From the NCBI GenBank assembly GCA_947623685.1, contig CANQHF010000011.1:1-38706 (forward strand): DNA of 38,706 nucleotides. Reading direction: 5' to 3'. This DNA comes from an uncultured Bacilli bacterium. Its GTDB lineage: Bacteria > Bacillota_I > Bacilli_A > RF39 > UBA660. The notes under the pieces were generated by a model. That model ran no database searches and was not told the origin of the DNA. It saw nothing but the letters and a program-made list of their open reading frames with translations. Position numbers and translations under genes: made by a program. Below are positions 32,946 to 38,706 of this stretch, in pieces; within the stretch, counting starts at the first letter, position 1, and each line of letters starts with the position of its first letter.

Positions 32946-33149
32946 TTACTTACTAAAATTTTCTAGTTTCTTTTCTTCAATGTATTCGTAATTTAATGCA
33001 TTATTACTAGGTATTGACTCAATTATCCTAAACATTTCTTCTATATCAACAACATCGATCATACGATATTTACCGTCATTAGCCTTAAGTTTCAACTGGT
33101 GACAATTTGTCACCGTTTCATTCCCTTCATCTTTAAGGCGTTATTGTAT
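32946..33149 (-). pseudogene. BRO/DinD-family gene remnant
   Basis: The minus-strand frame, open from after a TAA near 33150 to TAA at 32946-32948, reads RLKDEGNETVTNCHQLKL, then KANDGKYRMIDVVDIEEMFR and IIESIPS. This is the conserved part of BRO-N/DinD-type proteins (VTNCxxLKLxAxDGKxRxTDVxDxExxFRxIxSIPS), but it begins without start codon and ends in an unrelated tail (NNALNYEYIEEKKLENFSK) in place of the usual KAEPFKxWLA. It is a remnant. A perfect 17-bp palindrome at 33098-33114 encodes VTNCHQ. It fills most of the 400-base stretch between the hydrolase and the PfkB-SIS gene; nothing else was seen there. Confidence 0.72.
33098..33114. repeat. perfect 17-bp palindrome in the BRO/DinD remnant
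   Basis: GGTGACAA-T-TTGTCACC is symmetrical around one base and fits RGTNNNAWNWTNNNACY with triplet GAC. It encodes VTNCHQ in a different codon phase from the palindromes in the ORF6N genes, so symmetry is not a by-product of a shared protein motif. Confidence 0.88.
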
Positions 33150-33173
33150 TATTTGATAAAGGTTAATATTTAA

Positions 33174-35129
33174 TTATAAATCACCTTTGTAAAAATATAT
33201 CTTCATTGCGCTTTCAGAATATTTAGGTTTTGATACATCTATATCCATTACTTTCCCAATATAATAAATAACAAACTGTGAAGCGATCAATAAATCAAAT
33301 TCAGCTAGAATTCCATCATAATTACTTTCTATTATAATAGTATTATTTCCTAGATATTTTAACAATTCTTGCTCATATTTTGTTGTTGATTTTTGTTTAA
33401 AATAAACTGAACACGTATTATTCAAATTTTCATAATTGATAAATCTTCCATGTGAAAAGTTCTTTTTCTCGTGAATTATACAATTAAATATACCAGATTC
33501 AATTAACTTGCTTTCTAAATCATAACACGCGCTATCAGTATAGTCACCACGAAATAAATTTAATACTTGATGCTCTTTTATTTTTTTTATAAAATTTTTG
33601 TTTATTATGTTTTCCATTTTCTTATTCCAATTATTAATTGATTCTTTAATAAAGCTGTCAATATTAATATTGTAATCATTTTTTTTAAAGTAATATTTTA
33701 AAAATATTGCTGCTGGAGCGACTGACCCCTCGAATGACAAAAATCCTCGTTCTTTTCCTTTATTAGATGAAGTACGGTAACTTAAAATGTTTTTCTTCAA
33801 AATTCCAGTTTTTAAAACAATGTTCTGTAATTCACCTTTAGTAACAATATATACATTTTTTTTATTTAAATCTTTGACACTCATGATAATATCATTCGTT
33901 GTGCCAGAGTATGAAAATAATACTACTTTATCTATGTTATTATTATTCCTATATAAAACATCTCTTGGATACATTGAGTATGTATTACATCCATACATTA
34001 AATTTGTAATCTTTGCAGCAAAATATGCTCCAGCATATGAGCCACCAGTTCCAATAAATAAACAATTATTATTTTCATTAAAAGCCATATCATCTATTTT
34101 TTTACTTGCAGTTGTATTAATTGCATTAATAATTCTTGTCTCAAGATTATTTATATTTATGTTACAACGCTTAATTTTTTTTCTTTCATTATATATAAAA
34201 TTATCACAAGTGCATTCACCATCAGCTTGTTTAACCTTAAATAATGCATTAATATGTCCTCTTGCTCCCATTTTAGAAACAACTTTAGCTGTAAGTTTAT
34301 TCGAATTTTCATACCATCTGTTAAATAGATTTGGATCATAAATAAAATTATTTTTTATACAATCTCTTAATATACTAGAAATAAATGCATCACCAGCACC
34401 AGTTGAATCTACAATATTTCCTTTGATTTTTAATTTGAAATTGTACTCTATTCCTTCTCTGGTAAAAATTGCACCATTTTTACCACGGGTAATAGTCATA
34501 AAATTTGGCTTTAATATATTATATAAATCTACATTATTATTTAAATTTAATCTCTTTATTAAATAATTTGATACTCGTTCATTAAAATTAATAATTTCAA
34601 ATTTATTATTTAACTTATCTATTATTTCTTTATCAGATAGATTTTCTAATTCAAAATATTGTCCTAAATCAATAATTTTTTTATTAATTGTATTATCAAT
34701 TATTATCTGATTTTTATCATTTAAATTATCAAATACTAAAACATCATCATCATTAATATTCTTTATAATACCATTTGTATCAATCAAACTGTTTTCATAC
34801 CATTTTTTATTATTACAGAAAGGGCACCTTTTTTTTGAAGAAAATGATAATTTACCATCAATATCAAAATATGATACATGAAAACATCTAGTTCTTACAT
34901 TATTCAAAATTACAATATTTTTTACATCAACATTTAATTTTTCAAGACTTTTAATTGCTATTTTGCCTTGCATATCATCTGCGCACACTCCAAATACTGC
35001 AGTATTAATATTCATTTTTGCTAAGTTAGCAACAATGTTGTGAGCTGTCATTCCGCCATTTATTCCAAGAAGTTTTCCGTTTTTATAATAATAATCTGTT
35101 ACAAGATCACCTATACTTACTACTCTCAT
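33174..35129 (-). CDS. PfkB-family kinase fused to a double-SIS phosphosugar domain
   Basis: Residues 1-300 form a ribokinase/PfkB domain: start MRVVSIGDLVTDYYYKNGK, GINGGMTAHNIVANLA near 22-37 and the catalytic signature DSTGAGDAF at 241-249. A CPFC pair (102-105) inserted in the domain and C306/C308 (ECTC) could bind zinc. Residues about 345-651 form a SIS region: GTGGSYAG at 360-367, SYSGTTND at 406-413, and a second half with ESKLIESGIFN and NFSHGRF, as in double-SIS GlmS/AgaS-like proteins. The enzyme would phosphorylate a sugar and isomerise or bind the phosphosugar. It overlaps the upstream gene by ATGA, so is translationally coupled and the last gene of the operon. The fusion is unusual. 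Confidence 0.85.
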   Translation of the reverse strand: MRVVSIGDLVTDYYYKNGKLLGINGGMTAHNIVANLAKMNINTAVFGVCADDMQGKIAIKSLEKLNVDVKNIVILNNVRTRCFHVSYFDIDGKLSFSSKKRCPFCNNKKWYENSLIDTNGIIKNINDDDVLVFDNLNDKNQIIIDNTINKKIIDLGQYFELENLSDKEIIDKLNNKFEIINFNERVSNYLIKRLNLNNNVDLYNILKPNFMTITRGKNGAIFTREGIEYNFKLKIKGNIVDSTGAGDAFISSILRDCIKNNFIYDPNLFNRWYENSNKLTAKVVSKMGARGHINALFKVKQADGECTCDNFIYNERKKIKRCNININNLETRIINAINTTASKKIDDMAFNENNNCLFIGTGGSYAGAYFAAKITNLMYGCNTYSMYPRDVLYRNNNNIDKVVLFSYSGTTNDIIMSVKDLNKKNVYIVTKGELQNIVLKTGILKKNILSYRTSSNKGKERGFLSFEGSVAPAAIFLKYYFKKNDYNINIDSFIKESINNWNKKMENIINKNFIKKIKEHQVLNLFRGDYTDSACYDLESKLIESGIFNCIIHEKKNFSHGRFINYENLNNTCSVYFKQKSTTKYEQELLKYLGNNTIIIESNYDGILAEFDLLIASQFVIYYIGKVMDIDVSKPKYSESAMKIYFYKGDL

Positions 35130-37459
35130 TTAGCAATACTCCTTTTATATTCTCCAACTTCACTTTGTTCATTATAATCGTGATTTTTTATTAAACACTC
35201 TACTATCTTTTTTCTATTCAAATCAAATACTCCTAGAGAGTCCATATAATCAATTTCTCCATTTTCTTTTTTCCAATTATTATCTTTCCAACTATATGGG
35301 CTACTAAAACATAATCCATATATGTAATTAAAGAATAAATTATAATCAACAGCTGATGGATTATCTAAAAACATTTGATCAATTCTATTAATGCTAGGAT
35401 ATCTAACAATACAAATGTTATTAACACCAATATTACAATCATATAATGAATTAATAGCAAGTTGTAACGTCTTTCCTGTTAAAACATTATCATCAAACAA
35501 GTCTACATTTGAATTTTCAAAAATTTCAGAATTCATTAATCCACCAAAATCTTTAATATTAAATTTTCTTAAATCCAAAAGTTGTTTATTTGTATATCCA
35601 GATACTTCCTTATTAAATTTTAGAAGTAATAATCTTTCAATTCTATTTTGATCAATTATTTTAGCTAATATTGGAAGCTCTATACCACCATAACTTAAAC
35701 CACATGCATTTGTGAATTTATTATTATCACATTTTTCTTTATATAAAGATACCGCAATATAGTTTTCTGCAAAATTATCAATCTCTCTATATGCCCTATA
35801 ATTTTTAGAATAATCATTTTCATTATTTTTATTTAACTCTTGTGTCAAGTTATTAAGCAATACTTCTTTAGAGCTACCTATTATTGTAAGAATACTTTCT
35901 TTATCAACAATATATTGATTTTCAAAACATATTCTGCTCATTAATCTTTCAATTTCCATAATAATGGTATACAATTTATTATTATTTTCACTGTTTAAAA
36001 AAATATCTAATAAAATATTTTTATCAAAATAGCTAGAAACCAAATAATGATTAATTAAGACCAATAAAATATTTCTACAATTATCTAAAATACCCAATAA
36101 TAGTTTTTTATTAATCTGATTATTTAAGTTTTCAGTAGATAAAACCGCATTTATAGAGTCATCTAAAAATTTTGCATTGTTCTCATACCAATTTATCACA
36201 TCTTTTTTTGAAGTAATATCTTTTCTATTGATACTTAATCTATTTGATATAAAATAGTAATAAGTCTTTGAGCCTCTAAGAAGATAATTATTATTGTCTC
36301 TTAATGAATACATTAACGCTTCATTATCTGTGGATAACCAAAAATCTTTTAAAGAGCTATTTTGTAAAAGTTCCATCTCATACATTGGAATAATTATACT
36401 GCCACTTTCTCTATCAAATAAATCATCAATTCCATTACAATTGTTAAAATTGCTACTTATCAAATTATTATATTTTTTTAAAAGTGTTTGTCTTCCCATT
36501 ACTATATTACCTTCAACTCTAGCAAGATTATATTTATAAGTATCTTTATCTGCTTTTTCCAACGATGCAGTAGGTAATATCTTAGCACTTTTTAATAATT
36601 GTAATGTTGCCTCTACACCTTTTAATATATTTCCATCATCATCAAATATAGGAAAACAAGAATTACTAGACCCACTTGTTTTATCAACACTATAACCTTG
36701 ACCACAGTTTAGCATTGCATAATCATTACCACGTGGATCTCCACAATCTCCAATTCTAATCATAGAATTTTTAGGAACACCAATTATTTTTTCTGCTCTC
36801 TCAATTGCTCGATCTTTAGTTGCAGTTCCTATCTGAATAACTGAATTATTTTTGTATATGCCTCTTGTTAAATGAATACCATTTAAACCATTGCTTATTA
36901 TATATTTATCTATATTATCAAATATTGAATTAATTATTCCATCAGTATGAGTATTAAATACCATTCTTACGTTTAAAATTTGATTTGTTTTTAAGTCTTT
37001 AGAGTAAGTTATATCAAAATAATCACTACTATTTAATTTATTTTTAATTTCACTAATCACTTTATTTATTATTAATAGTTGATTCAATTCTTCTTCTGTT
37101 GTTATATAAACATTTTCCCCTAAAAATTCTTCTTGCGAAATTGCATTACTATAAAATAATCTTGCACCATCATTTGTCAAAACATATATCCTTTTCATAT
37201 CACTATCAGTAATATTTTCACTAGTTTTTATTCTTAAATAAATATCACGCTTTAAATCTTCCAATCCAGTTTCTCCGCGACCTGTTATAAATACAACTGG
37301 AATTTTTTTTGCTAGCAATTCAATAATCATATTTATTACTCTATCATCAATGTTTTTAGAGTCTTTAGTAGTTAATGTTCCATCTATGTCAAAGCATACT
37401 GCATTATATTTTTGTTCTAATGATTTAAGATAATTCTCAAATAAAATGTTTCTTTCCAT
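35126..37459 (-). CDS. HAD phosphatase-phosphoribosyltransferase fusion protein
   Basis: Residues about 15-285 form a Cof-type HAD hydrolase: nucleophile motif FDIDGTLTTKD with Asp24/Asp26, FITGRGETG near 58, and GDCGDPRGNDYAML near 240-255. Residues about 290-560 are helical and not recognised. Residues about 560-740 resemble a type I phosphoribosyltransferase: GLSYGGIELPILAKII and the PRPP-loop-like LFDDNVLTGKTL (DDNVLTGK at 656-663). HAD plus PRTase suggests turnover of a nucleotide-like compound. AGAGGTAG precedes the ATG, six bases after the previous stop; the stop TGA overlaps the next ATG. The substrate is unknown. The length of 777 residues and both catalytic motifs intact argue for a functional enzyme. 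Confidence 0.82.
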   Translation of the reverse strand: MERNILFENYLKSLEQKYNAVCFDIDGTLTTKDSKNIDDRVINMIIELLAKKIPVVFITGRGETGLEDLKRDIYLRIKTSENITDSDMKRIYVLTNDGARLFYSNAISQEEFLGENVYITTEEELNQLLIINKVISEIKNKLNSSDYFDITYSKDLKTNQILNVRMVFNTHTDGIINSIFDNIDKYIISNGLNGIHLTRGIYKNNSVIQIGTATKDRAIERAEKIIGVPKNSMIRIGDCGDPRGNDYAMLNCGQGYSVDKTSGSSNSCFPIFDDDGNILKGVEATLQLLKSAKILPTASLEKADKDTYKYNLARVEGNIVMGRQTLLKKYNNLISSNFNNCNGIDDLFDRESGSIIIPMYEMELLQNSSLKDFWLSTDNEALMYSLRDNNNYLLRGSKTYYYFISNRLSINRKDITSKKDVINWYENNAKFLDDSINAVLSTENLNNQINKKLLLGILDNCRNILLVLINHYLVSSYFDKNILLDIFLNSENNNKLYTIIMEIERLMSRICFENQYIVDKESILTIIGSSKEVLLNNLTQELNKNNENDYSKNYRAYREIDNFAENYIAVSLYKEKCDNNKFTNACGLSYGGIELPILAKIIDQNRIERLLLLKFNKEVSGYTNKQLLDLRKFNIKDFGGLMNSEIFENSNVDLFDDNVLTGKTLQLAINSLYDCNIGVNNICIVRYPSINRIDQMFLDNPSAVDYNLFFNYIYGLCFSSPYSWKDNNWKKENGEIDYMDSLGVFDLNRKKIVECLIKNHDYNEQSEVGEYKRSIAK

Positions 37460-37464
37460 AATAT

Positions 37465-37980
37465 CTACCTCTTTATCAAAAACTCTAAACTCCTAACTTT
37501 TTTATTAGTATCACTTTCAATTGTTGGATCAAAAATCAATCCTCTTCCACCATTTTCAATCCATTTTGTAATATTTTTTTTGGAATCATCAATTAGCAAT
37601 TGATGATTTGGAACTATTACTTGATGTTTTTTTACACCAGGCGGAACGAAAATTACTGGACATAAAATTTTTAAATTTTCTCTCAAAACTTCCGTTTTTA
37701 CTTTCATTTCTTGAAGTGTATGAATTTTTGTTAAAATTGCTATCTTTTTTTTTAAATTTTCGAGTTCTTTTATTATTTCAACGGAATTATTAATTGGCTT
37801 AGCTTCTTTTATAATATATTCCCATTCTTTTGGATGTGAATTTGTATATTCAAAGTATGTATCAAATTCATTTTCATTTTTGTGATCATGAAGTCCTAAA
37901 TTATATTTTCGTTCTAGCATTCTCTCTTCAGAATCTAATATTACCCCATCAAAATCAATAAATGTATAATCAGTTGTCAT
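37465..37980 (-). CDS. small HAD-family phosphatase, 5'-nucleotidase-like
   Basis: The 171-residue protein has FIDFDGVILDSE near 7-18 (nucleophile Asp), AILTKI near 80, a Lys in GVKKHQ and LLIDDSKKNITKWIENGG near 127-145 with the acidic pair, then LIFDP. This order, short cap, and the DDS.KNI..W...GG end resemble deoxyribonucleotidase-type HAD enzymes. ATG 37978-37980 is chosen because GAGGGGG lies eight bases upstream; the open extension lacks one. It lies between the WYL regulator gene and the HAD-PRTase gene. The two HAD enzymes in one operon suggest two dephosphorylation steps or one plus a regulatory role. Confidence 0.8.
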   Translation of the reverse strand: MTTDYTFIDFDGVILDSEERMLERKYNLGLHDHKNENEFDTYFEYTNSHPKEWEYIIKEAKPINNSVEIIKELENLKKKIAILTKIHTLQEMKVKTEVLRENLKILCPVIFVPPGVKKHQVIVPNHQLLIDDSKKNITKWIENGGRGLIFDPTIESDTNKKVRSLEFLIKR

Positions 37981-38037
37981 AACTATATTCCCCCTCAAAC
38001 ACATTATATCATACATAATTGAAATATTTGGTCTTTT

Positions 38038-38628
38038 TTATTTTATATTAGTAATTCTTTTCAATTCAAAGTGTCTTATATCATTTCTTAATTCACAAAA
38101 TGCTGTAACATAATAGCTATCTTTATATTTAAATAAATGAAGTGGGTGAATTATTCTTTTTGATTTTCCACCATCTATATCATTATAAATAATTTCTATT
38201 TTATCATTTTTATTTATCGCAGTTTCAATTAACTTTTCAATTTCACCAGGTGTATTTAAATTTATGTTTGAAATATATTTACTTTTTTCATCATAAATTG
38301 AATACATTTTTTTCGATTTATCTAAAAATTCTTTAAGTTTATCTAAATATTTAAAATCGCTATTTAATAGTAAATTATATATATTTTCTAATAATTGAAT
38401 ATCATATTTATTAATACTAGTATAATTCTTAATTTTATCTATCATAAAGTATCCACCATTTGGTCCTTTAAATGATTCAATTGCAATTCCATTAATACAA
38501 ATTTCATTTTTATAATAACGTATCATTCTCTCGGTTACACCTATTTTTTTTGCCAAATCTTTTATTGTATATATGTTTCCTGTATTTAATAAATCTATCA
38601 TATACATCATATTTGATAATTTACCCAT
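38038..38628 (-). CDS. HTH-WYL transcriptional regulator
   Basis: Residues 1-60 form a DeoR/HTH_11-type winged helix (TIKDLAKKIGVTERMIRYYK and a wing GPNGGYFM). Residues about 130-196 are the start of a WYL domain (KNDKIEIIYNDIDGGKSKRIIHPLHLFKYKDSYYVTAFC split over about 137-178, then RHFELKRITNI). WYL domains sense ligands, often nucleic-acid-related, and control accessory and defence operons. At 196 residues it lacks the C-terminal WCX extension found in longer members. It is the first gene of a four-gene operon, with an inverted repeat in front that may be its operator. Confidence 0.88.
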   Translation of the reverse strand: MGKLSNMMYMIDLLNTGNIYTIKDLAKKIGVTERMIRYYKNEICINGIAIESFKGPNGGYFMIDKIKNYTSINKYDIQLLENIYNLLLNSDFKYLDKLKEFLDKSKKMYSIYDEKSKYISNINLNTPGEIEKLIETAINKNDKIEIIYNDIDGGKSKRIIHPLHLFKYKDSYYVTAFCELRNDIRHFELKRITNIK

Positions 38629-38640
38629 AATATCACCTTG

Positions 38641-38682
38641 TATAATATAATTAGTTCTTTTTTAAAGGACTAACATATTATA
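38641..38682. promoter_or_regulatory. inverted repeat in the promoter region of the WYL operon
   Basis: TTAGTTCTTT (38651-38660) and AAAGGACTAA (38664-38673) form 10-base arms with one mismatch, loop TTT. AT-rich flanks TATAATAT and ATATTATA extend the symmetry and may include the -10 element. It lies 20 bases before the regulator start, where an autoregulatory operator would be expected. Confidence 0.5.
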
Positions 38683-38706
38683 TCCTTTCTATTTATTTTT
38701 TTATAT

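Follow-up and report, generated by a model that had tools for sequence, protein, structure and literature searches.

A PfkB kinase is paired with a SIS deglycase in FrlD/FrlB. The FraD/FraB pair has the same composition and comprises a ketosamine kinase and a deglycase (PMC9609667). Phosphoribosyltransferase (PRTase) and HAD phosphatase domains, in turn, are united in one chain in Bcs3 of Haemophilus influenzae type b, which transfers ribose-5-phosphate from phosphoribosyl pyrophosphate (PRPP) and then dephosphorylates the product (PMC10299916), and in Cj1432 of Campylobacter jejuni, which likewise couples ribose-5-phosphate transfer with dephosphorylation (PMC12096443). The gPRT-PRP enzymes of Klebsiella O4/O7 also transfer ribose-5-phosphate before the phosphate is removed (PMC11231755). 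All these tested HAD and PRTase O-ribosyltransferases act on surface polymers (PMC10299916, PMC12096443, PMC11231755). Here, we analyzed a 38,706-nucleotide stretch of DNA from an uncultured Bacilli bacterium (the window), which is an entire contig (G000:C11; CANQHF010000011.1) of a 1.24-Mb draft genome. Its minus strand holds, in order, the genes wyl, had, hadp and kin, encoding a WYL regulator, a small HAD protein, a HAD-PRTase protein and a PfkB-SIS fusion protein. We tentatively interpret these genes as a modular, horizontally mobile metabolic operon under WYL regulation that may make or modify a ribosylated nucleoside-like or sugar-like small molecule.

The first-pass annotation had described a closely packed one-strand operon, and its reading frames and coordinates hold (Table 1). 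As read from the sequence, wyl and had are separated by 57 bases and had and hadp by 5 bases, while hadp and kin overlap by ATGA. A scan with one genome per species yielded 18 loci at 45-89% identity, nearly all with the order wyl-had-hadp-kin; altogether, more than 20 genomes share the order, with identities of 45-90%. The dN/dS values of all four genes ranged from 0.06 to 0.31, and all four are under purifying selection. HAD-PRTase matches were found in 24 of 386 genomes and 21 of 150 genera of the window's GTDB family; beyond it, the class and phylum samples contained no genome with a full-length match. Co-occurrence of the two fusion proteins, a check suggested by the first-pass annotation, was borne out: PfkB-SIS was present in 22/22 genomes with a non-divergent HAD-PRTase or its remnant (31 genomes with the PfkB-SIS fusion; hypergeometric 5e-29, a value inflated by shared descent).

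The idea of a single dedicated four-gene pathway did not survive this comparison. Nine genomes possess the PfkB-SIS fusion without HAD-PRTase, arranged as wyl-kin (L185, L190, L192, L193), as wyl-hydrolase-kin (L186, L191) or as kin without an adjoining WYL gene (L187, L188, L189). SIS and PfkB are unfused in L194, L196 and L197, where the two genes follow the WYL gene, and WYL-SIS alone remains in L202-L204 and L212. Of the related loci readable on the upstream side, almost all have a WYL gene immediately before the other genes, the operons reduced to WYL-SIS included. Because unfused, WYL-SIS-only and WYL-SIS-Ham1 operons all exist, the invariant core is WYL plus tandem SIS, usually with PfkB, either fused or separate. 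In L201, L213, L214 and L215, a gene for a Ham1-family nucleotide hydrolase comes after WYL-SIS, an operon type of which we found no description.

Outside this core, the gene content varies. The DNA flanking the operon on either side is 95-96% identical between the L185 and L015 loci, and 57 bases of L185 correspond in L015 to a stretch of about 2.85 kb containing had and hadp. Since these near-identical loci differ by the block, had and hadp are gained or lost as a unit, and they constitute a plug-in cassette. A hydrolase gene takes their place in L191, which shares both genus and alaS site with these two loci, and L030 is without the small HAD gene. Additional genes are inserted between hadp and kin, namely DHH and APH genes in three loci (L005, L009, L150), CAT and hydrolase genes in L017 and L141, and a hydrolase gene alone in L016 and L148; similar slots elsewhere are filled by esterase, CAT-like, DHH, APH-like and Ham1 genes. 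In G158, G562 and G663, a full-length PfkB-SIS stands beside a HAD-PRTase decayed to fragments. A toxin-antidote reading, with HAD-PRTase lost and PfkB-SIS intact in these three genomes, was also considered and is weakened because PfkB-SIS occurs without HAD-PRTase in the nine genomes above and the had and hadp block is a discrete cassette.

The operon moves between genera of one family of gut Bacilli, sometimes within an element that has no other cargo. The window genome's RpoD shares 92-93% identity with that of G003 and G004 (same genus) and 73% with that of G613 and G846 (other genera), and the HAD-PRTase identities are reversed, about 47% to G003 and G004 and 86-88% to G613 and G846. In L014, the operon, an open reading frame (ORF) of 70 amino acids (aa) and a large serine recombinase gene make up a 7.6-kb stretch (L014:6676-14264) that splits a dacA-type carboxypeptidase gene, and the operon is its sole cargo. 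Joining the flanks of this element restores one open dacA frame, and the same is true for L003, where the serine-recombinase element in the dacA-type gene (L003:2510-14829) contains an AMP-ligase-like gene, a histidine kinase gene and a Nudix gene in addition. L152 harbors a further serine-recombinase element in a dacA-type gene, with an internal deletion in the operon, and the operon copies of L141, L143 and L184 lie near a different recombinase. Next to kin in the window is a decayed BRO/antirepressor-like gene (Table 1), which is intact in the L141 recombinase element; this remnant is a trace of a former mobile element. Phages, plasmids and IMG/VR contained no homologue, and an origin from phages, plasmids or viruses was rejected.

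The PfkB and HAD assignments of kin and hadp in the first-pass annotation were upheld by profiles and structure models. PfkB-SIS matched Pfam PfkB with an E of 5.8e-12 and Pfam SIS with an E of 5e-4, the latter under the Pfam cut-off. In the structure model, residues 1-294 adopt a PfkB/ribokinase fold (Z about 25), and residues 319-639 form a tandem SIS that aligns with the human GFAT-1 isomerase domain over 307 residues (Z 23.6), in agreement with the double SIS first proposed. The kinase Asp247 is invariant, and Glu544 and His560 of the SIS part are kept in unfused relatives. These Glu and His residues are 16 residues apart, as in GlmS. The kinase also carries a Zn-site-like CPxC...CxC motif (C102, C105, C306, C308), which is invariant in the aligned fusions and retained in most unfused PfkB relatives (L194, L195, L197, L198, L200), being lost in L196 and L199.

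HAD-PRTase consists of a HAD-IIB domain (residues 1-296), a helical middle (about 300-560) and a PRTase-like domain (about 560-777). The HAD-IIB part matched NCBIfam with an E of 3.5e-12, its fold was confirmed in the structure model (best Z 18), and its motifs are intact and almost all invariant, including Asp24. The first Foldseek rows were IMP (inosine monophosphate) nucleotidases, headed by that of Plasmodium (E 1.9e-8). The matches listed by both fold searches fell on the HAD domain and barely covered residues after 296, so that the lack of a PRTase match there carries no weight, and Bcs3 was not matched in a profile search of the PDB. The PRTase type proposed earlier was recovered by motif and a weak profile match. 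The C-terminus contains the PRPP-loop motif DDNVLTGKT and GG.ELP, both nearly invariant among intact homologues, and profile comparison gave specific but low-scoring matches to hypoxanthine PRTases (E 7e-4) and uracil PRTases (E 5e-3), most other operon domains used as controls giving 0.1-0.5 and one spurious seven-residue control match reaching 2e-3. The C-terminal domain is thus likely a PRTase. The small HAD is weakly typed as HAD-IA (NCBIfam, E 2e-4) and keeps the motifs DFDGV and IDDS; its ORF opens at 38016, and the conserved start lies at 37980.

Compared with the described enzymes, HAD-PRTase resembles Bcs3, Cj1432 and the Klebsiella O4/O7 enzymes (gPRT/CriT with PRP/CrpP) in joining a likely PRTase and a HAD phosphatase in one polypeptide, an arrangement that in those enzymes results in net ribose transfer from PRPP. 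In contrast to CriT of Bcs3, in which acidic E818 and D680 replace the classical DD motif of PRTases, HAD-PRTase keeps DDNVLTGKT; it also differs from CriT/CrpP and gPRT/PRP in having a HAD-IIB domain and a helical middle, and in the lack of a glycosyltransferase or polymer locus. PfkB-SIS is similar to FraD/FraB and FrlD/FrlB in that a PfkB kinase adjoins or is fused with a tandem SIS, whereas the operon differs from them by the WYL regulator, the lack of a transporter, the CPxC...CxC kinase, low similarity and the added ribosylation cassette. Its SIS part shares the tandem fold of the GlmS/GFAT isomerase domain without the glutaminase domain.

Two parallels drawn in the first-pass annotation were not sustained. 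Like GmhA/HldE/GmhB of ADP-heptose synthesis, the operon encodes SIS, PfkB and HAD proteins, but the four proteins contain no nucleotidyltransferase domain and the SIS is a GlmS-type tandem, so this parallel was rejected; the PRTase is a further difference. A Ter-associated nucleoside-like metabolite module was reportedly described by Anantharaman in 2012, and it also combines a PRTase and a HAD phosphatase in one operon. However, the PRTase studied here matched neither Pfam PRTase_2 (PF15609) nor PRTase_3 (PF15610) at E up to 1, and membership in the Ter module was rejected on this ground; TerB, TerC and TerD were not noticed in the loci read, although no systematic genome search was made. 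Ribose transfer with dephosphorylation, as by Bcs3 and Cj1432, is a better parallel for HAD plus PRTase. A search of the open-access literature (most subscription journals lay outside it) turned up no characterized pathway with these genes, consistent with the earlier claim. The domain families are known and HAD plus PRTase is precedented; the modular, mobile arrangement is the new part.

We propose a ribosylation and sugar-phosphate route because the PRTase plus HAD and PfkB plus SIS precedents are known; each reaction, its direction and its substrate are predictions. In the core, a sugar or a ketosamine would be phosphorylated by the PfkB kinase, and the product would then be isomerized or deglycated by the GlmS/FrlB-type tandem SIS fused to the kinase. 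In the plug-in cassette, the PRTase would move 5-phosphoribosyl from PRPP onto a small acceptor, and the HAD of the same chain together with the small HAD would strip the phosphate to leave a riboside. The predicted product may be varied by an optional CAT-like acyltransferase, alpha/beta hydrolase, APH-like kinase or DHH phosphoesterase, and the WYL protein may be the switch that senses a cue.

A divergent PRTase branch bears on this proposal. L133 and L134 encode the middle and PRTase regions without HAD-IIB (27-28% identity to the window's protein and 43% to each other), so that the conserved region is the part after about residue 300. The L133 neighborhood, whose membership in one cluster is putative, includes a PLP (pyridoxal phosphate) decarboxylase, a MiaB-like radical SAM protein, a GNAT protein, a methionyl-tRNA ligase, an AsnA-like ligase, a methyltransferase and a pyridoxamine kinase, as well as a CAT that shares 43% identity with its operon counterpart and, adjoining the PRTase, a homologue of the small HAD (42% identity). 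The L134 locus includes a TyrRS/TrpRS-like gene as well as an APH kinase that shares 33% identity with that of the operon. The recurrence of the partner families HAD, CAT and APH suggests that the PRTase takes part in the synthesis of a small molecule. L133:1-13650 and L216 form a biosynthesis-like cluster with two divergent PRTase homologues, in which the methionyl-tRNA ligase is an extra copy.

Several points weigh against the synthesis of a ribosylated molecule. The Schiff-base lysine of GlmS is not conserved across this SIS family, leaving the SIS reaction a prediction, and the PRTase assignment draws on weak profile scores and motifs. The operon lacks genes for an exporter, a glycosyltransferase or resistance, and its content thus gives no sign of a surface glycan or of a secreted product. 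The kinase and SIS could equally be a catabolic or repair route, and WYL-SIS with Ham1 nucleotide hydrolases points to nucleotide clean-up. The main rival, which we consider somewhat unlikely, is salvage or repair of glycated or modified sugars and nucleotides, in which PfkB would phosphorylate an Amadori-type compound, SIS would deglycate it, and HAD, Ham1, DHH and PRTase would clear or recover the nucleotide parts. PfkB plus SIS is indeed the FrlD/FrlB and FraD/FraB pair, and the kinase weakly matches ribose-1-phosphate kinases and the NCBIfam fructoselysine 6-kinase model (E 1.5e-7; 31 bits, not reaching the cut-off of 247). Ham1 adjoins WYL-SIS in four genomes, and the top Foldseek match of the HAD is an IMP nucleotidase. 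However, the operon is without a transporter, a PRTase joined to a phosphatase would yield a riboside rather than salvage a nucleotide, and acyltransferase and aminoacyl-ligase partners suit synthesis better.

Anti-phage or stress defense, with WYL inducing the operon upon infection or DNA damage and the enzymes making a signal or changing the nucleotide pool, seems improbable. The operon is mobile and patchy on recombinase elements, with Fic, HEPN-like, KAP NTPase or Rpn-like neighbors in some loci, and HAD and PRTase domains are among candidate defense systems (PMC13092281). But only the WYL regulator matched PADLOC, many copies stand alone among housekeeping genes, phages, plasmids and IMG/VR are without homologues, and the WYL-SIS-only forms have no evident effector. 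Decoration of surface glycans, in which HAD-PRTase would act as a ribofuranosyltransferase on wall or capsule polymers and a sugar precursor would come from PfkB-SIS, is very improbable: the tested enzymes act on surface polymers, but no glycosyltransferase, flippase or ABC exporter is in the operon or common to its loci.

The contig ends 78 bases upstream of the WYL gene. The assembly evidently broke at a repeat, since the last 75 bases of the window are identical to the ends of two further contigs of the same genome (Table 1). This identical 75-76 base promoter/leader (also L026:1-75 and L027:3108-3183) heads three unrelated genes in one genome and terminates three contigs, and similarity is lost exactly at the start codon. 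The fetched loci of relatives were without this repeat, and in a sigma-70 scan promoter-like sites were no more frequent than in shuffles.

Table 1 Features of the operon and its surroundings in the window
Feature	Position	Strand	Evidence
WYL-domain transcription regulator (wyl), helix-turn-helix + WYL, 196 aa	38038..38628	-	Pfam WYL E 9e-16; upstream WYL gene in relatives
Small HAD phosphatase (had), 171 aa from conserved start	37465..37980	-	ORF, motifs, L133 homologue
HAD-IIB + helical middle + type-I PRTase-like domain (hadp), 777 aa	35126..37459	-	Domain profiles, motifs, model
PfkB/ribokinase-fold kinase (residues 1-300) fused to tandem SIS (residues 319-640) (kin), 651 aa	33174..35129	-	Domain profiles, structure model
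Decayed remnant of BRO/antirepressor-like gene	32960..33164	-	70% identity over 56 aa + C-terminal piece
Putative promoter/leader stretch	38632..38706	-	Identical to ends of contigs C42, C53

A broader version of the proposal, which we regard as doubtful and clearly speculative, holds that a constant WYL-SIS core, usually with PfkB, and exchangeable cassettes are spread by minimal serine-recombinase elements and make undescribed ribosylated antibiotic, signal or defense compounds among gut Bacilli. If a ribosylated small molecule is indeed the product, PRPP-dependent ribosylation with linked dephosphorylation would extend from surface polymers to a mobile operon for small molecules in gut Bacilli with small genomes. 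Simple comparison of the near-identical loci that have the ribosylation cassette with those that lack it would allow this product to be found, and the 7.6-kb integrative element with a metabolic operon as its sole cargo implies that the operon may confer a benefit worth transferring.

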